Source of the DNA: Myxococcaceae bacterium
GTDB taxonomy: Bacteria; Myxococcota; Myxococcia; Myxococcales; Myxococcaceae
NCBI GenBank assembly: GCA_018262385.1
Contig: JAGSPQ010000015.1
Location: 1-12,279 of the forward strand
Direction of reading: 5' to 3'
DNA: 12,279 bases
Positions 5,674 through 12,279 of this stretch are shown here, piece by piece. Position 1 is the first letter of the stretch; each line of letters opens with the position of its first letter. The notes below the pieces were generated by a model. That model was not told the DNA's origin. It ran no database searches and saw nothing but the letters and a program-made list of their open reading frames with translations. The translations under genes and the position numbers were made by a program.

Positions 5674-6270
5674 ATGGGACGACCGCGACGGATTTCGGAC
5701 GACGACATTGCGAGGGAAGCGCGCGCAGTCTTTCTCAGCCAGGGGCCGGGCGCCTCGACGGAGAAGATCGCGCGCAAGCTGGGGGTCTCGCAGGCGGCGC
5801 TGTTCAAGCGGGTGCCGACCAAGGACGAGCTGCTGGTGCTGGCGCTCTGTCCGCGCGACACCCCGCTGGTGCTCCAGCAGCTGCCGATGGGGCCGGACCT
5901 CGATCGCCCGGTGCCGCAGCAGCTGACCGAGCTGGTGCGCTCGCTGCTCGGGTTCTTTCGCGACCTGATGCCGGCGCTGCTGACGTTGAAGGCCAGCGGC
6001 GTGGCGCTCGAGCGGGCGTTTCCAGATGGGAAGGTCGCTCCGCCGATCAAGGTGCGGGAGGACCTCACCCTGTGGCTGAAGCTGGCGCACCGCCAGCGCA
6101 AGGTGGGGGGCGCGGATCTGAAGCCGATGGCCGAGCTGATCCTCGGAGCGATCGAGTCGCGCTGCCTGCTCGAGCACCTCGCCGGAGCGAAGGCCTCGGC
6201 CGCGGATGACCGGACCTTCGCGACCGAGATCGTCCGCGCGGCGTGGCACGGGCTGGCGCCGTCGACCTGA
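5674..6270 (+). CDS. TetR/AcrR family transcriptional regulator
   Basis: A 198-residue DNA-binding regulator. The N-terminus is the usual TetR domain: GRPRRISDDDIAREARAVFLSQG, then the helix-turn-helix STEKIARKLGVSQAALFKRVPTKDELL (about 29-54). In the last motif the usual Tyr-x-His/Tyr before F is replaced by LFKRVPTKDEL, a common variant. The rest is the helical ligand-binding and dimer domain, too divergent to suggest a ligand. The length is typical. The ATG has no strong ribosome binding site, so expression may be low. It is divergent from the 702-residue protein gene and lies 114 bases upstream of the repeat-peptide gene on the same strand, so it could control either set. The context does not decide between them. 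Confidence 0.9.
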   Translation: MGRPRRISDDDIAREARAVFLSQGPGASTEKIARKLGVSQAALFKRVPTKDELLVLALCPRDTPLVLQQLPMGPDLDRPVPQQLTELVRSLLGFFRDLMPALLTLKASGVALERAFPDGKVAPPIKVREDLTLWLKLAHRQRKVGGADLKPMAELILGAIESRCLLEHLAGAKASAADDRTFATEIVRAAWHGLAPST

Positions 6271-6384: not shown

Positions 6385-6915
6385 ATGAAGAAGATCCAGG
6401 GCCCGAAGATCGCGTCCACCCGGGTTTCGACGCCGAAGGCCGCCGAGAAGGCCGCCGCCGCCGCGAAGCCCACCGCGGCCAAGACGGCCAGGCCGGCCGC
6501 CGGCTTCCCCCGCACCGCCTGGGCGGATCCGGCGAAGCTGGCGAAGTCGATCGAGACCGCGCACGCGCGGGAGAGCCACCCCCGGCTGGTCCACGCCAAG
6601 CCGGTGGCCCACGATCCGATCGGCGGTGAGCCGACCCGCCCGCCGATCGCGATGCGCTACGGCCTGCGACCGCCGGTGAATCCGCCGCCGATCGCGATGC
6701 GGTACGGCCTGCGCCCGCCTTCTCCCGGCCAGCCGCCCGCGCCGCCCGCGCCCCGCCCGCCGATCGCGATGCGCTACGGCCTGCGACCGCCTTCTCCCGG
6801 CCGCCCGACCGATCCCCCGGTGAAGCCGCCGCCGATCGCGATGCGCTACGGGCTGCGTCCTCCTGAGCGCCCGGGGATCCCGACCACGCCGCGCCGCGGC
6901 CACTCGGTCGACTGA
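6385..6915 (+). CDS. Candidate multi-core ribosomal peptide precursor with four PPIAMRYGLRPP repeats
   Basis: A 176-residue protein I read as the substrate of the next gene's radical SAM enzyme. Residues 1-80 are a possible leader: basic start, Ala/Lys-rich stretch (17-36), then FPRTAWADPAKLAKSIETA. No hydrophobic signal sequence is visible, and nothing resembles the nitrile-hydratase or Nif11 leaders. Residues 86-97, 101-112, 125-136 and 149-160 are four identical copies of PPIAMRYGLRPP, separated by short Pro-rich spacers. Each holds an Arg-Tyr-Gly (91-93, 106-108, 130-132, 154-156). Tyramine-excising spliceases act at X-Tyr-Gly, so each copy could be a modification site; this is inference. 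The protein has no Cys, Asn or Gln in the repeats, so lanthionine or cyanobactin-type heterocycles are unlikely. GGAG eight bases before the ATG supports the start. The stop is 11 bases from the maturase start, indicating one transcript. An unmodified Pro-rich structural protein is the main alternative. Confidence 0.72.
   Translation: MKKIQGPKIASTRVSTPKAAEKAAAAAKPTAAKTARPAAGFPRTAWADPAKLAKSIETAHARESHPRLVHAKPVAHDPIGGEPTRPPIAMRYGLRPPVNPPPIAMRYGLRPPSPGQPPAPPAPRPPIAMRYGLRPPSPGRPTDPPVKPPPIAMRYGLRPPERPGIPTTPRRGHSVD
6640..6864 (+). repeat. Four in-frame 36-base repeats encoding PPIAMRYGLRPP
   Basis: Copies lie at 6640-6675, 6685-6720, 6757-6792 and 6829-6864, with spacers of 9, 36 and 36 bases. By eye only 5 of the 36 positions vary among copies, and all five are third codon positions that leave the amino acid unchanged. 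The similarity between copies 2 and 3 continues past the unit (both are followed by codons for Ser-Pro-Gly), which suggests tandem duplication of a longer piece. Confidence 0.95.
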
Positions 6916-6926
6916 CGGAAGAAGGA

Positions 6927-8225
6927 GTGCCGAAGGTTCCGCAAACGATCCCCGCCGCGAAGCCCGCGAGCGGGCTGGATCGGCTCGTCGACTACAAGCG
7001 GTCGGCGTACGCGGTCTGGGAGATCACCCTCAAGTGCAACCTCGCCTGCCAGCACTGCGGCTCGCGCGCCGGCGAGGAGCGGGTCAACGAGCTGTCGACG
7101 GAAGAAGCGTTCGACCTGATCCGGCAGATGAAGGAAGCGCAGATCACCGAGGTCACCCTGATCGGCGGCGAGGCGTACCTGCGCCCCGACTGGCTGCAGC
7201 TGATCAAGGCGATCAACGACGCGGGGATGATGGCCACGATGGTCACCGGCGGCTACGGGATCTCGAAGCCCACCGCGAAGAAGATGAAGGACTCGGGGCT
7301 GGCCAGCATCTCGGTCTCGATCGACGGCCTGGAGGAGACCCACGACCGCCTGCGCGGCCGCAAGGGCTCGTGGAAGAACTGCTTCACCTCGATGAAGAAC
7401 TTCAAAGAGGTGGGGCTCGACTTCGGCTTCAACACCCAGGTCAACCGGCTGTCGGCGCCCGAGCTGCCGGCGCTCTACCCGCTGGTGCGCGACGCGGGCG
7501 CGACCGGCTGGCAGTTTTCGCTCACCGTGCCGATGGGCAACGCCGCCGATCATCCCGAGCTGCTGATTCAGCCGGCCGAGCTGATTGATCTGTACGCGAT
7601 GCTCGCGCGGGTGGTGAACCGGGCGAACTCCGAGGGCGTCTCGGTGCTGCCCGGCAACGACATCGGCTACTTCGGCCCCTACGAGTCGATCTTGCGGGCC
7701 AGGCACCAGCAGATGGGGATGTACTGGCAGGGCTGCCAGGCGGGCCTCGCCGGCCTGGGGATCGAGGCCGACGGGAAGATCAAGGGCTGCCCTTCCCTGC
7801 CGACCGATTCCTACGTGGGCGGCAACATCCGCGATCTGCCGCTGGCCGAGATCCTCCAGAGCAAGGAGCTGACCTTCAACACCCACGGCGGCACCCCCGA
7901 AGGGGTCGAGCACCTGTGGGGCCACTGCAAGAGCTGCGAGTACGCCGAGCTGTGCCGGGGCGGCTGCACCTGGACGGCGCACGTCTTCTTCGACAAGTCG
8001 GGCAACAACCCCCACTGCCACAGCCGGGCGCTCAAGCTGGCCGCTGCCGACGTGCGCGAGCGGGTGGTGCTGAAGCAGAAGGCGCCCGGGCTGCCGTTCG
8101 ACAACGGGGTGTTCGATCTGATCGAGGAACCGGCCAGCAACCCCTGGCCGCACAACGACCCGCTGCATTTCACCTCGGAAAAAGTAGTATGGCCGCCCGG
8201 CTGGGAGCTCTGGCCGTCGTTCTGA
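6927..8225 (+). CDS. Radical SAM/SPASM peptide maturase
   Basis: A 432-residue enzyme that should cleave S-adenosylmethionine at a 4Fe-4S cluster and use the radical to modify a peptide, most likely the repeat protein just upstream. The cluster motif CNLACQHC gives Cys37, Cys41 and Cys44. GGEAYLRPDW (from 80) is the SAM-contacting GGE motif, and SISVSIDGLEETHDRLRG (about 127-144) is a typical core strand. The C-terminal half has a SPASM-type cysteine set for auxiliary clusters: Cys270, Cys288 (KGCPSLP), Cys334, Cys337, Cys343, Cys347 and Cys364. The last 30 residues form a Pro/Trp-rich tail (Trp407, 422, 426, 429) not usual for the family. No PqqD-like recognition domain is visible at the N-terminus. 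The GTG start has GGAAG five bases upstream. The 11-base gap to the precursor suggests coupling. It could be a splicease, a cyclase or another SPASM maturase; the family is sure, the chemistry is not. Confidence 0.93.
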   Translation: MPKVPQTIPAAKPASGLDRLVDYKRSAYAVWEITLKCNLACQHCGSRAGEERVNELSTEEAFDLIRQMKEAQITEVTLIGGEAYLRPDWLQLIKAINDAGMMATMVTGGYGISKPTAKKMKDSGLASISVSIDGLEETHDRLRGRKGSWKNCFTSMKNFKEVGLDFGFNTQVNRLSAPELPALYPLVRDAGATGWQFSLTVPMGNAADHPELLIQPAELIDLYAMLARVVNRANSEGVSVLPGNDIGYFGPYESILRARHQQMGMYWQGCQAGLAGLGIEADGKIKGCPSLPTDSYVGGNIRDLPLAEILQSKELTFNTHGGTPEGVEHLWGHCKSCEYAELCRGGCTWTAHVFFDKSGNNPHCHSRALKLAAADVRERVVLKQKAPGLPFDNGVFDLIEEPASNPWPHNDPLHFTSEKVVWPPGWELWPSF

Positions 8226-8245
8226 CGAAAACCTGGGGAGAGCAC

Positions 8246-8539
8246 ATGCAGGAGTACATGCTGAAGGTGAGTAAGAGCGCCGAGAAAGACGTGGCGCGCT
8301 ACCTCGCACTCGATGCCGCGCCGTCGCACATTCGGTTGTCGACGCTCGCTCCGCTGTCCAACTGGGGCTACCCGCCAGAGTCACAGGCGGCGGTCTTGAA
8401 GATCCTCGAGCACGGACTGGTGATGGGCCAGGACGGCGGCAAGGACGAGGCTCCGCACGACTTCGTCCCCTGGCAGAACATCGCCTACCTTTCCGACGGC
8501 TCGGGGCTGTTCCGGGAAATGGGCAGCGGCAAGCGGTAG
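8246..8539 (+). CDS. Small conserved-looking protein downstream of the maturase, possible accessory or recognition partner
   Basis: A 97-residue protein I do not recognise. The start is supported by GGGGAGAG five bases before the ATG; the same frame is open upstream but overlaps the maturase. It has no signal peptide, membrane segment or Cys. Residues 1-30 are mixed helix and charge (EYMLKVSKSAEKDVARYLA). Residues 48-83 (AAVLKILEHGLVMGQ, then HDFVPWQNIAYLSD) alternate hydrophobic residues like a small beta-barrel. Being third in a precursor-maturase-small protein set, 20 bases after the maturase stop, it could be a recognition or partner protein. The PlpX splicease needs a small partner (PlpY) of roughly this size; whether this one is related cannot be told by eye. 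Its stop lies three bases from that of the convergent TIGR02996-type gene. Confidence 0.75.
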   Translation: MQEYMLKVSKSAEKDVARYLALDAAPSHIRLSTLAPLSNWGYPPESQAAVLKILEHGLVMGQDGGKDEAPHDFVPWQNIAYLSDGSGLFREMGSGKR

Positions 8540-8547
8540 CCGCTACC
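8535..8547. repeat. Inverted repeat GGTAGC-C-GCTACC across two convergent stop codons
   Basis: The six-base arms are perfect. The left arm contains the TAG of the rightward 97-residue gene and the right arm the TAG of the leftward TIGR02996-type gene. As RNA it could form a five-base stem with a three-base loop from either side. No T-run follows, so it is at best a weak two-way terminator, or simply the result of two similar gene ends meeting. Confidence 0.4.
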
Positions 8548-9469
8548 ACCGCTCATCTTTCAGGAGCCGCTGCCGGGACATCGCGTTCCGCAGCGGCTTC
8601 ATCTTTGCGGGCGGGAAGCGCTTGCCCTCGGTGGTGAAGGCAAACGCGGTGAGCGCGTCGTCCGGCAGCGCGCGCAAGGGGGTGCTCAGCTGCGGCAGGT
8701 AGCTGGCGTTCTGGGTCACCGCCGAGAAGTGCAGGTGCAGCGCGGAGAGCCGCCCGTCGAGGCCGCGGGTCAGCTCGAAGTAGAAGAACGAGTGGCCCAC
8801 CACCAGCCGCTGCAGCCCCGGCAGCTGGGCGGCGGCGTGGAGACAGCCCGCCACGTCGAGCGGCAGGTTGAGATCGAGCTCGAGCGAGTGGAGCTGCCGG
8901 GCGAGCGCGCTGCCCCACAGCCACTGCAGCTGCCGCGCTTCCCACGGCCACAGCGCGGGCGAGAGCTTGAGGCGGGTGAGCGTCGGGTAGGCGGTCATCT
9001 TCAGCAGCGCCGCCAGCTGCTGCCTGTTCCACCCCGACTGGCTGCCCGGCCCCGACAGCTCGAGCTCCTCCAGCGGCGGGCGGTGCTCGGTCTTCAGCAG
9101 CACCTCGAGCCCGAGCCGGAAGGCGCCGTGGAGGGTGTGGAGGGCGCGGAAGTTTCCCCCGCCCAGCTCGCTCGGGGTGGTGCTGTCGGCGACGGAGAGG
9201 TTGATCTTCTCGACCGTGTTCCAGCGGGGATCTCCGGCGGTCGCGCCGTTGAGCTTGACCCAGGCCTCGCTCAGGAAGCCCCGGGCCCACTTCTCTTCCC
9301 CGACCAGCATCTTCTGCAGCGGGCCGAGCCAGGCGGCGCGGTGGGTGTGGAGCAGCTGCTTCTCGCGCCGGGCGCCGGTGCTGGACAGCGGGCGGCGCTG
9401 CTTCTCGAGCTGCAGCGCGATGAACTCGCCGCGCGGATCGCCCCGCTCGAGCAGGTGATCGGCCAGCAC
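8543..9469 (-). CDS. TIGR02996-type repeat-companion domain protein, second paralogue; true start uncertain
   Basis: A protein of unknown function. The GTG at 9469 is the first usual start codon, giving 308 residues that begin VLADHLLERGDPRGEFIALQL. However, the frame is open to 9541, and those codons read DTEALFAAVYAHPRADGPRA, matching the start of the paralogue (TDALFAAVYAAPNSDPPRA) and the normal N-terminus of this domain. No ATG, GTG, TTG or CTG occurs there, and a TAG ending the monooxygenase gene lies at 9542-9544 in the same frame. Translation may begin at the ATC at 9530-9532 (with TAGGGA before it), arise by read-through, or be absent. The rest is a Leu-rich region with loosely repeated L-x-x-L segments (PPLEELELSG, LTRLKLSP, LHSLELDLNLPLDVAG, LQRLVVG, LSALHLHF), like leucine-rich repeat proteins that often follow this domain in myxobacteria and Planctomycetes. 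Such domains may mediate protein binding. Confidence 0.75.
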   Translation of the reverse strand: MLADHLLERGDPRGEFIALQLEKQRRPLSSTGARREKQLLHTHRAAWLGPLQKMLVGEEKWARGFLSEAWVKLNGATAGDPRWNTVEKINLSVADSTTPSELGGGNFRALHTLHGAFRLGLEVLLKTEHRPPLEELELSGPGSQSGWNRQQLAALLKMTAYPTLTRLKLSPALWPWEARQLQWLWGSALARQLHSLELDLNLPLDVAGCLHAAAQLPGLQRLVVGHSFFYFELTRGLDGRLSALHLHFSAVTQNASYLPQLSTPLRALPDDALTAFAFTTEGKRFPPAKMKPLRNAMSRQRLLKDERW

Positions 9470-9541: not shown

Positions 9542-10828
9542 CTACTGCGAGATGAAGAAACCGCCGACGCACATCTCGTCTTCCGTGCGCGCTCCCCAGT
9601 TGATCTCTTTGGACGCCTGCCGGACCCCGTTGATCACCGGCTGGTTGGCCTCCGAGTTGTCCCAGTGGCACTCGACCGAGAGCTTGTCGCCGGGGTTGAG
9701 CACTTTGTAGTCCTTGAGCGAGTACGGCAGCTGCCAGTGGAACTGCCACTTCGGAATGTCGACCAGGCAGTCCTTGCTGCCGTCGGCGCGCTCGATCTCC
9801 ATCCGCGCGCTCTTGCCCCAGGCGTGCATGTGGGCGGTCGCCATGTAGAGCTTGATCGGCTGGCCGTCGAGGAAGCTGCGGTTGGCGAGCGAGAGGTAGG
9901 GAGTGGGATCCATCGAGAAGCGGTGGGTGACGTCGGCAGCGCCTTTGGGGATTCGCATCGCTCCGGCGGTGCTCATCCACTTCGGGTCGGCCCACGCCTG
10001 CACCGAGCCTTCGCGGCGCACCTTGTCCTCGAGCTTCAGCTCGATGCTGGTGCGGTCGGGCTTCGGGCCGCCGTTGACGATGTTGTAGTGGACCTGGATG
10101 AAGAGCTTGCTGCCGGGGAGGATCTTCAGCCCGGTCTGAGGCGGGAAGTCGGCGCCGAGGCTGCCGGGGACGAAGGTGCCGATCCACCCGCCTTCGCCGA
10201 TCGGGCTGGGAAAGTTGTAGCACTCGTACCCCGCCCCGGGCGCCGCGTCGTCCTTCGCCTGGTAGGCGGCGACCGAGTCGGGGTGGATGAAGAACAGGTT
10301 GGCGTGGTGCACCAGCTGCGGCTGGCCGGGGACGACGTTGAAGCCGGTGATGAACTTCGGCGCGGTCTCCGGCCAGTCGAGGACGAAGCAGCGGTACTCG
10401 TCGGGAGACTTCTGGGGGAAGAACGGCTCGCTCATGGTGACGGTGCGATCGACCCGGCTCAGGCCGGTGGCGAGCAGCGACTGCGGCGCGGCGGTCTTCG
10501 GATCTCCCTCGGGCGCGGCCGAGTCGTACCAGAGCTCGAGCAGGGCCAGCTGATCGTCGGTGAGCGCGCCGTTGGGCGCGTACTCGGCGCAGGAATTCGA
10601 GGCGGGCCAGGGCGGCATCCGGCGCGAGGTGACCGCCGGGCGCACCCTGCCCTCTTCCGCCCGCATCATCGCCAGGCTGTCGAGCTCGAACGGGCCGATG
10701 CCGCCCGGGTGGTGGCACTGGCCGCACTTCTCCTTCACCAGCGGCTGGATGTCGCGGTGCCAGGTGGGCGGGCCGGCGACGGGGGCGCAGGCAGAGACGG
10801 CGAGGGCGAGGAGGATGATGGGACGCAT
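9542..10828 (-). CDS. Lipoprotein with c-type haem motif and PHM/DBH-like copper type II monooxygenase domains
   Basis: A 428-residue predicted outer-envelope enzyme. MRPIILLALAVSAC is a lipoprotein signal with lipobox VSAC, so the mature protein is lipid-anchored at Cys14. IQPLVKEKCGQCHHPGGIGPF carries CxxCH (Cys35, Cys38, His39), a likely c-type haem site. The rest follows the peptidylglycine monooxygenase / dopamine beta-hydroxylase fold. All six copper ligands have candidates: His174-His175 (VHHANLFF) and His247 (QVHYN) for the first copper, His333 and His335 (AHMHAWG) and Met420 (EDEMCVGGF) for the second. This supports a working two-copper centre that hydroxylates a C-H bond using oxygen and two electrons; the haem may deliver electrons (inference). 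The ATG at 10828 was chosen over a start 18 codons upstream because the signal sequence begins there. It starts 43 bases after the first paralogue's stop. Substrate unknown. Confidence 0.88.
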   Translation of the reverse strand: MRPIILLALAVSACAPVAGPPTWHRDIQPLVKEKCGQCHHPGGIGPFELDSLAMMRAEEGRVRPAVTSRRMPPWPASNSCAEYAPNGALTDDQLALLELWYDSAAPEGDPKTAAPQSLLATGLSRVDRTVTMSEPFFPQKSPDEYRCFVLDWPETAPKFITGFNVVPGQPQLVHHANLFFIHPDSVAAYQAKDDAAPGAGYECYNFPSPIGEGGWIGTFVPGSLGADFPPQTGLKILPGSKLFIQVHYNIVNGGPKPDRTSIELKLEDKVRREGSVQAWADPKWMSTAGAMRIPKGAADVTHRFSMDPTPYLSLANRSFLDGQPIKLYMATAHMHAWGKSARMEIERADGSKDCLVDIPKWQFHWQLPYSLKDYKVLNPGDKLSVECHWDNSEANQPVINGVRQASKEINWGARTEDEMCVGGFFISQ

Positions 10829-10871
10829 CGGCGCCGCTTCTAGCAGAGCCGGGCAAACCGTGACCACCTGG

Positions 10872-11906
10872 TCACCACTCAATCGGCCGGAGCCGGGGGA
10901 AGCGGAGGGCGGCGGTCCGCAGCAGCCCCCGCTTGCGGACCCGCGCTCCGGCGGGGGCCTGCAGCTCGAACCGGGTCAGCGCGTCGGGCGGCAGGGCGGA
11001 GAGCGGCTGGAGGAGGATCCGATCGATGATCGGCTCGGCGCCGAGCAGCTGCAGGTGGAGCTCGCTCAGCTCGCCGTTCGGATCGCGGCGGAAGTGGAAG
11101 GCGGCCGAGCGGTGGGCGACGGTGAGGGTGTGGAGCGAGCTGAGCGTCCGCGCCCGCACCAGGGTGCCGGCGACGTCGAGCGGAGGGGCGCCGCCGAGGG
11201 TCAGGTTCTGCAGCCGGCGGGCGAGCCGGCTCTTCCACAGCCACTCGAGCTCGAGCGCGTTCCAGTAGGGAGCGAGGTCGAGCCAGAGCGAGCGCAGCTG
11301 GGGCAGCTCGGCGAGCCGAAGCAGCCAGTCGACGTGCTTCTTCGAGATCCCGCGCAGGGTGCGCTCGAGCCGGCAGCCGAGGTGCTCGAGCGGGGGCCGG
11401 TGGGGGCCGCCCGGGTCGGCGAAGCCCTTGAGCGCGCGCTGCCGGGTGGGCCGGCCCTTGAGCAGCACGTCGAGGCAGCTGGGGGTGGCGTCCGCCAGCT
11501 CGAGCAGCGAAGTCATCGTGCCGCCGGTGAGCTCGAGCGGCCGGGCGTGATCCGGCGCGAGCAGCCGCAGCTTCACCACCGTCGCCCAGCGCGGGTCGCC
11601 CACCGTCTCGCCGTGCAGCCGGGCCTGGGCCGAGGTGAGGAAGCCGCGCTCCCAGTGGGTGGTGAGCGGGAGGACCACGTGGGCCAGCGGCCCCAGCCAG
11701 GCCGACTCGTGCGCTTCGAGCAGCTGCTGCTCGCGCCGGGTGGTGGCGTGGGTCAAAGGCCCGCGGAGCTTCGCCAGCTGGAGGGTGATGAACTCGCCCC
11801 GCGGATCGCCCTGCTCGAGCAGGTGGTCGGCGAGCACCGCGCGGGGGGGATCGGAGTTGGGCGCTGCGTAGACGGCGGCGAAGAGCGCGTCGGTGGTGAA
11901 CGACAC
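10872..11906 (-). CDS. TIGR02996-type repeat-companion domain protein, first paralogue
   Basis: A 344-residue protein of unknown function. It opens with SFTTDALFAAVYAAPNSD, then PPRAVLADHLLEQGDPRGEF, the usual form of this N-terminal domain (about 1-55) seen in myxobacteria and Planctomycetes. Leu-rich segments follow (PPLEHLGCRLERTLRG, LPQLRSLWLDLAP, LQNLTLGGAPPLDVAG, LSSLHTLTVAH, LSELHLQLLG), consistent with degenerate leucine-rich repeats. The GTG at 11906 was chosen because the conserved domain begins there. A longer frame to an ATG at 12140 reads as Pro/Arg-rich, non-conserved sequence. No good ribosome binding site precedes the GTG. The protein aligns throughout with the second paralogue on the other side of the monooxygenase gene, sharing AWLGPL, RGFL, GDPRW, EVLLK/DVLLK-like, WLW and PLDVAG landmarks. 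No export signal is seen, while the protein encoded between the two paralogues is exported, so a direct partnership is not obvious. Confidence 0.82.
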   Translation of the reverse strand: MSFTTDALFAAVYAAPNSDPPRAVLADHLLEQGDPRGEFITLQLAKLRGPLTHATTRREQQLLEAHESAWLGPLAHVVLPLTTHWERGFLTSAQARLHGETVGDPRWATVVKLRLLAPDHARPLELTGGTMTSLLELADATPSCLDVLLKGRPTRQRALKGFADPGGPHRPPLEHLGCRLERTLRGISKKHVDWLLRLAELPQLRSLWLDLAPYWNALELEWLWKSRLARRLQNLTLGGAPPLDVAGTLVRARTLSSLHTLTVAHRSAAFHFRRDPNGELSELHLQLLGAEPIIDRILLQPLSALPPDALTRFELQAPAGARVRKRGLLRTAALRFPRLRPIEW

Positions 11907-12279
11907 GGGTTGGGCGTAGCACGCGCGGGGAAGATCGAGGTGGAGGTTGGGACCCCCGCTGGGCGGGGGCGGAGCACTCCGCCTTGGGCGGGCGGGTCGA
12001 TGCGGGGGGGGTGCGAACGACGGCTGTAGGTCGCGGGCGACGCCGATCGGTGGGACCTGAAGCGCCTCAGCGCCCCCCGGGTTCTCCTCGCGAGTCCGTT
12101 GAGGCGGGACGGAAACGAAACCGGGCGCCGGAGCGGCCACTGAGCATCATCGGAGGGAGCGGTGACGAACCACCTCGCGAGGCCCAGCGCCCCGAGGTTC
12201 TCGTGGCGACGGCGTCGCGGGCGTCGGACGCTTCGAGAATCGATGGACCGCGGCCGGTCGTCAGGACGAAGACGAAACC
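11907..12279. other. 373-base stretch without a supportable gene
   Basis: This is the upstream region of the first TIGR02996-type paralogue. Its left part holds overlapping GC-rich inverted repeats (11953-11991). CTCGCGAG occurs twice, at 12087-12094 and 12174-12181, the second inside the ten-base palindrome CCTCGCGAGG (12173-12182). A GTG at 12162 preceded by GGAGGGAGC opens a frame to the window end, but its product is an Arg-rich string of 39 residues with no recognisable feature. No tRNA, terminator with a T-run or convincing promoter was seen. Confidence 0.5.
11953..11991 (-). repeat. Overlapping GC-rich inverted repeats upstream of the first TIGR02996-type paralogue
   Basis: Three perfect stems overlap. 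CCCCCGC-TGG-GCGGGGG (11953-11969) and GGCGGAG-CA-CTCCGCC (11968-11983) share two bases, and CCGCC-TTG-GGCGG (11979-11991) overlaps the end of the second. They lie 47-85 bases before the GTG start and cannot all form at once, so the leader RNA could switch between structures. No T-run follows on either strand, so they are not plain intrinsic terminators. Chance is a real alternative in such G/C-rich sequence. Confidence 0.4.

Follow-up and report, generated by a model that had tools for sequence, protein, structure and literature searches.

Which chemistry takes place at a locus where one short peptide sequence is repeated four times, each copy holding an Arg-Tyr-Gly (RYG) tripeptide, and the next gene encodes a radical S-adenosylmethionine (rSAM) enzyme? 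The question is raised by a 12,279-base stretch of DNA from a Myxococcaceae bacterium (contig JAGSPQ010000015.1, forward strand), here called the window, whose source genome assembly is 79% complete. It contains a three-gene cassette on the plus strand: a precursor of 176 amino acids (aa; 6385-6915, ATG start), a 432-aa rSAM/SPASM enzyme resembling the splicease PlpX (6927-8225, GTG start) and a 97-aa, probably accessory protein that usually adjoins a splicease and is predicted to form a small beta-barrel (8246-8539); 11 and 20 bases separate the three genes. These gene calls and gaps agree with an initial annotation of the locus, which had proposed a PlpX-type splicease acting at the RYG sites. 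In the reading that we consider probable, this is a spliceotide cassette, with tyramine excision at the RYG sites, a PlpY-like element borne in the precursor's leader, an accessory barrel protein and, most speculatively, an inhibitor as its product.

The enzyme and its probable, repeated substrate

The four copies of PPIAMRYGLRPP in the precursor are exact and begin at residues 86, 101, 125 and 149, corresponding to bases 6640-6675, 6685-6720, 6757-6792 and 6829-6864 of the plus strand, with RYG codons at 6655-6663, 6700-6708, 6772-6780 and 6844-6852, respectively. At the DNA level the copies vary in five places, all of them third codon positions that leave the amino acids unchanged, and selection therefore appears to act on the repeat at the amino acid level. 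In 2000 shuffles of the precursor protein no 6-mer occurred more than three times. An AlphaFold model of the precursor is mostly disordered (mean predicted local distance difference test score, pLDDT, 59.3, low confidence).

PlpX and PlpY of Pleurocapsa sp. PCC 7319 are described as a spliceotide system in PMC10533398, PMC11002830, PMC10373908 and PMC12710340. One locus in our comparisons, L163, encodes two precursors with Nif11 leaders (TIGR03798 matches) and a single site each, AVAAMYGVVFP and PLFPIRPLYGLPI. Save for the residue X preceding Tyr-Gly, these match splice tags printed in PMC10533398, where X is Gly in most tags and one printed tag retains LYG; the same source has PlpXY of Pleurocapsa working on MYG and LYG. 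From these matches we infer that L163 is the plp cluster or a near copy of it. The window enzyme is 62% identical to the L163 enzyme over 407 residues (551 bits), the C-terminal tail included. That tail, rich in Trp, had initially been thought unusual, and it proves ordinary for the family: W422 and W426 are invariant in an alignment of 29 relatives, and WPPGWE in the window enzyme corresponds to WPENWQ in PlpX of L163.

Pfam recognizes Radical_SAM and SPASM domains in the window enzyme, with the cysteines of the CX3CX2C motif at 37, 41 and 44. SPASM domains follow a rule of cysteine spacing, and seven more cysteines (270, 288, 334, 337, 343, 347 and 364) have SPASM-like spacing. The best family is TIGR04103 (nif11-class peptide radical SAM maturase 3), for which our literature search found no paper, and the second is TIGR03913 (GDL motif peptide-associated rSAM maturase), at 386 bits far under its cut-off of 592. 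We built a quick tree of 93 rows with nine enzymes of greater distance as its root and the Shimodaira-Hasegawa-like approximate likelihood ratio test (SH-aLRT) as its only support. It places the window enzyme in a 32-row clade (SH-aLRT 99) within the TIGR04103-type enzymes, with L097, whose best family is TIGR03913, among the outgroup rows. A maturase phylogeny had been suggested as a check in the initial annotation, and our tree has the window's clade lying amid enzymes whose precursors contain XYG.

Arrays of XYG sites adjoin related enzymes of varied taxonomy at many loci, examples being VYG five times in L060, M/LYG ten times in L064, KYG five times in L076 and L/MYG ten times in L095. Within the window's own clade, the four other enzymes with a readable precursor have only Arg or Lys at X: three RYG in L119, from the same genome, five RYG in each of L082 and L083, and four KYG in L003. 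In the precursor family of the window, all 89 counted sites have Arg (82) or Lys (7), where YG counts as a site if it comes after residue 60 and has a Pro between -7 and -3; 21 of the 24 sequences have counted sites. Seven YG fell outside this rule, six of them close to an N-terminus and the seventh a DYG in the P0152 leader, and P0159, identical to the paralogue in L119 with its three RYG, was dropped from the tally. In a set of 21, relatives of the precursor are 113 to 208 aa long except for two, of 244 and 211 aa. Among 189 genomes from the phylum to which the window belongs, 4 contain such relatives, at five loci, each beside an enzyme, so that the repeat protein was not seen there without a maturase, a finding that the initial annotation had named as one that would count against it. 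Myxococcaceae are among the named relatives of the cassette genes.

In a neighbouring clade of 12 rows, which takes in Archangium violaceum (L056) and other genomes from the family of the window, the precursors are short and contain FPR and a single core preceded by GG; X is D, K, R or I in the seven that could be read. These seven (L056, L086, L088, L090, L091, L124 and L126) combine an FPR element, a LDEKALEQIRGG-like double-glycine end and one XYG.

Two points weigh against this assignment of enzyme and sites. The window enzyme scores 660.2 bits to TIGR04103 and does not reach the curated cut-off of 725, whereas the PlpX-type enzyme of L163 scores 824.4; and the Arg/Lys tally is biased, as 17 of the 21 site-bearing rows were found through similarity to the window precursor, the other four being the window itself and L003, L082 and L083 from enzyme searches. 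The low family score, together with the chemical versatility of rSAM/SPASM enzymes in general and the lack of a known product here, is what favours a different kind of SPASM-type modification at these sites, for example a crosslink centred on Tyr or Arg in place of tyramine excision. Given an identity to PlpX of L163 that extends over the whole length, the nesting of the window's clade among enzymes with XYG precursors and the weak scores of other NCBIfam peptide maturases (DynA 65 bits, WgkB 82 bits), such a modification seems very improbable. A PlpX-type splicease working on RYG is by far the best fit, and the window enzyme is a close relative of PlpX. The chemistry suggested by this kinship is likely to be tyramine excision at all four sites, each yielding the alpha-keto homologue of Arg.

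A probable PlpY-like element in the precursor leader

PlpY is the partner protein with which PlpX works, according to PMC10373908. At L163, the open reading frame (ORF) after PlpX encodes 56 aa with VLPRQGW, and its place and size indicate that it is PlpY. Across 76 distinct enzymes at least 70% identical to PlpX (with L066 counted among them), 74 are followed by a separate LPRxxW peptide. Of the two exceptions, L048 has the peptide, with its longest ORF overlapping the enzyme, and the stretch of L075 ends just after the enzyme. The named members of this set are cyanobacteria by title, and none of the 76 loci has the strict motif (Phe/Leu-Pro-Arg-x-x-Trp) within a precursor with several XYG sites.

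The window is arranged differently. No separate PlpY partner is found in it, and a PlpY-like element is detected, by family profile, in the precursor itself: FPRTAW at residues 41-46 and then a helix at 44-59, together 6505-6561 on the plus strand, picked out by motif, family profile and model. The block after FPRTAW is the best-modelled part of the precursor (pLDDT 71) and is helical. Down to a length of 30 aa, no other ORF of the window contains the strict motif; the rest of the genome was not searched for it. As the initial annotation had stated, the leader lacks a Nif11 form, and neither Pfam nor NCBIfam gave any match for the precursor.

The comparison extends to other TIGR04103-type loci, 39 in number when the window itself (L081) and L143 (the same locus as L059) are included. 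None has a separate peptide within the stretches examined, where the search took the strand that codes for the enzyme and ran from 60 bases ahead of the end of the enzyme match to 1200 bases past it, and further for 3.5 kb either way of the enzyme; at 17 of the 39 there is less than 2 kb on one side, and a distant peptide could escape. Thirteen have the strict motif fused in an XYG-array precursor. A looser form, [FLYVIM]PR, is found in a further 13 (L056, L059, L063, L065, L072, L076, L077, L086, L088, L090, L091, L124 and L126), of which L077 has the strict motif with a single YG. No precursor was read at L061, L069, L070, L089, L092, L093, L125 and L127, which with the duplicate L143 make nine loci. 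Of 29 precursors that do not belong to the PlpX-like group, 24 contain the looser motif, compared with a mean of 3.7 and a maximum of 10 in 2000 rounds of shuffling, and 12 contain the strict motif, compared with a mean of 0.08 and a maximum of 2. This count took a wrong first core for L132 (which has LPRSGW), matched a stray upstream PR first in L064, L082, L083 and L124, and used shuffles that ignore relatedness.

Comparison of profiles relates the two forms directly. With hhalign, 53 separate peptides matched 21 leaders of the window's family with probability 71 (E 3.7e-5, score 31.9), and 12 other leaders with probability 92 (E 5.5e-7). In controls, 100 column shuffles reached at most 0.8 in probability and 13.7 in score, and pairings with three unrelated families did not exceed 0.4 and 14.8. 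Excluded from the family leaders were P0153, P0163 and P0164, which have no core YG, and P0165, which has no motif; L060, L076, L079 and the single-core precursors were excluded from the others. P0153, P0163 and P0164 have kept the leader and lost the core YG sites, and the Pro, the Arg or both are gone from their motif (the forms seen are FARTGW, FPATGW and FLATGW). In P0163 one YG lies upstream of the probable start.

Several observations weigh against a PlpY element in these leaders. The strict motif in an array precursor is absent from 26 of the 39 other loci, and neither form of the motif is present in L060, L078, L079 and L080; L079, titled Cyanobacteria bacterium RYN_339, has neither the separate nor the fused form. 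P0165 has five RYG sites without the motif. The leaders for the profile comparison were picked among sequences bearing both motif and YG, which favours a match. Run on the window precursor alone, the PlpY profile gives a weak match, with a domain score of 3.4 bits (E 0.077) against 5.0 bits for the top scorer among 6000 shuffled precursors. A hidden Markov model of the PlpY core, run on 30 single precursors, gave E below 0.002 for L132, L095, L073, L059 and L074 only. Since the single-sequence match in the window is not significant, the claim rests on comparison of one profile with another. Backed by this comparison and by the three decayed relatives, fusion of a PlpY signature into the precursor's own leader is likely.

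On the enzyme tree, the distribution of fused and separate forms needs two changes, with the looser motif scored as fused, and the separate form is nested among fused ones. It may be that the element which activates the splicease is as a rule part of the substrate, that PlpY is a detached leader, and that the well-studied PlpX/PlpY pair of cyanobacteria arose by a split that freed the activator to serve unrelated Nif11 leaders. In the window's lineage the self-activating substrate would then have turned into keto-Arg and keto-Lys arrays acting as multi-headed inhibitors of trypsin-like proteases. We hold this scenario tentatively, as close to an even call in which doubt has a slight edge.

The 97-aa protein and the surrounding genes

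The initial annotation had mentioned PlpY, the small partner of known spliceases, as background to the 97-aa protein. This protein has no sequence or profile similarity to PlpY, and it is the precursor leader that holds the PlpY-like element, so the protein was rejected as PlpY. Its model (pLDDT 91) is a small barrel with the order beta-alpha-5beta-alpha, for which, with Sm/Hfq and SH3-like barrels considered as candidate folds, Foldseek and VIA returned no trustworthy structural relative. The strict definition of a RiPP recognition element (RRE) is beta-beta-beta followed by alpha-alpha-alpha, as given in PMC12710340, which also considers PlpY too small to be one; on the order of its model the 97-aa protein was rejected as an RRE.

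The protein has 24 relatives in the protein collection, and matches in 8 of 195 genomes, seven of them convincing. In five of these seven it lies directly after the enzyme, in one (G182) it is 7 kb away and in one (G108) there is no such enzyme on the contig. The gene also follows the enzyme in L059 (two copies) and L060, and lies on the opposite strand in L064, L068 and L176. It is this placement, directly after the enzyme as PlpY is, at seven distinct loci (the window, G148, G153, G146, which is L003, G103, L059 and L060), that speaks for the barrel being the real functional counterpart of PlpY and FPRxxW a mere recognition sequence in the leader; PlpY is short, and a shared motif of six residues could reflect convergent docking. 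The PlpY profile matches the leaders and not the barrel, though, and the protein was not matched in the whole genomes holding L063, L071, L076 and L079 (possibly incomplete), nor found beside the paralogue L119, whose genome carries the window's copy. We regard this alternative as unlikely. Because of those same absences, the 97-aa protein is probably a further, accessory partner beside a leader-borne PlpY element. At L121 (G108:C79, 2200-2941) it occurs without a TIGR04103-type enzyme on the contig, after a 145-aa ORF that lacks YG, with an oxidoreductase ORF like the sarcosine-oxidase-like gene at the left end of the window just upstream; L121 is possibly a decayed cassette.

A TetR-type regulator gene (5674-6270, plus strand) stops 114 bases upstream of the precursor. 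Downstream are two similar-looking genes on the minus strand, one (10875-12140) with a TIGR02996 domain (38 bits), the other (8546-9469) with no NCBIfam match and a LADHLLERGDPRGEFI stretch that resembles one in the first; a Cu2_monoox_C protein (9545-10882) lies between them. The source genome has a second cassette on contig C882 (G000:C882, locus L119; 110-550 and 563-1867), in which a precursor with three RYG and an FPRASW leader precedes an enzyme 67% identical to that of the window; an RNase R-like gene lies downstream. A third, more distant rSAM enzyme of the genome (G000:C384, locus L120) has relatives in L103, L104, L128 and L129. Enzymes of this kind are preceded by small proteins that have both paired Cys, which by eye resemble a zinc ribbon, and one XYG site behind a lone Cys (for example ALYGIP and AAYGVP); an XYG-P protein adjoins the enzyme in 6 of 17 distant rSAM loci checked.

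Predicted product and significance

The steps in such a cassette can be proposed as follows. The disordered precursor would present FPRTAW and its helix, which would recruit or activate the enzyme; judging from the sequence profiles, this leader-borne FPRxxW-helix would replace the separate PlpY peptide of the cyanobacterial systems. The enzyme would then proceed along the four RYG sites, and at each, by homology, tyramine (C8H9NO, 135.068 Da) would be excised and Arg joined to the former Tyr carbonyl. The product chain would carry alpha-keto-beta-homoarginine at up to four places, each followed by Gly, with a mass loss of up to 540.27 Da. The most speculative step is the last, in which a basic keto residue in the PPIAM-R context would make a multi-headed inhibitor of trypsin-like serine proteases.

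Trypsin-like enzymes prefer Arg or Lys at P1, and Arg/Lys at X would steer the ketoamide to them, as cyclotheonamide is steered to trypsin. Cyclotheonamides are of non-ribosomal type, and their reactive residue is a keto-homoarginine. These sponge compounds share the alpha-ketoamide with the predicted product and, according to PMC8154582, bind trypsin by trapping its catalytic serine; they are macrocyclic, whereas the window product would be ribosomal with four predicted sites. Potent protease inhibition is ascribed to spliced beta-residues in PMC10373908, citing Scott 2022. By this analogy, inhibition of trypsin-like proteases by the product is plausible.

Against the inhibitor role, Pfam recognized no protease, transporter, exporter or inhibitor-target domain among the five window neighbours, and the role therefore rests on analogy. 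A keto-Arg product could instead be a structural, signalling or crosslinking protein kept within the cell. The precursor has no hydrophobic stretch resembling a signal peptide (maximum 15-aa hydropathy below 0), its relatives, mostly 113-208 aa, could act uncleaved, and the neighbours examined again show no exporter or protease domain, including ten ORFs near cassettes L130, L132 and L134, one of them without a Pfam match. Arg or Lys at every counted X, in line with the P1 preference, and the protease inhibition reported for spliceotides argue the other way, so that an intracellular role is quite possible and, on balance, somewhat doubtful.

Compared with PlpX/PlpY at L163, the window shares a related rSAM/SPASM enzyme, XYG sites and adjacent genes for precursor and enzyme. 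The L163 system has Nif11 leaders, one site per precursor, Met or Leu at X and a separate 56-aa PlpY-like ORF, whereas the window has a PlpY-like element in the leader, Arg at X, four identical cores and an added 97-aa barrel protein. The gene architecture, the kinship of the enzyme, the restriction of X to Arg or Lys in readable precursors of the clade and the distribution of fused and separate elements by lineage were computed here. Splicease chemistry, precursors with several sites and a wide occurrence are already known: PMC10533398 counts 27 other characterized and 939 predicted systems, and PMC10373908 has several XYG sites per precursor. The initial view of a new multi-core system thus holds for the several cores (four RYG) and not for their newness. 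Three features are provisionally new, namely a PlpY element fused to the leader, a clade with only Arg or Lys at X and a barrel protein as partner; none was found in literature searched by title and the start of the abstract, and the fused PlpY may already be in print.

Spliceases make backbones with reactive keto-beta-residues and are used in protein labelling. A substrate that activates its own enzyme would, if true, explain the role of PlpY, and one that carries its own activator points towards a one-piece design of tag plus activator with sites specific for Arg or Lys. Should the products act as inhibitors of trypsin-like proteases, these bacteria would possess genetically encoded, multivalent ketoarginine inhibitors.

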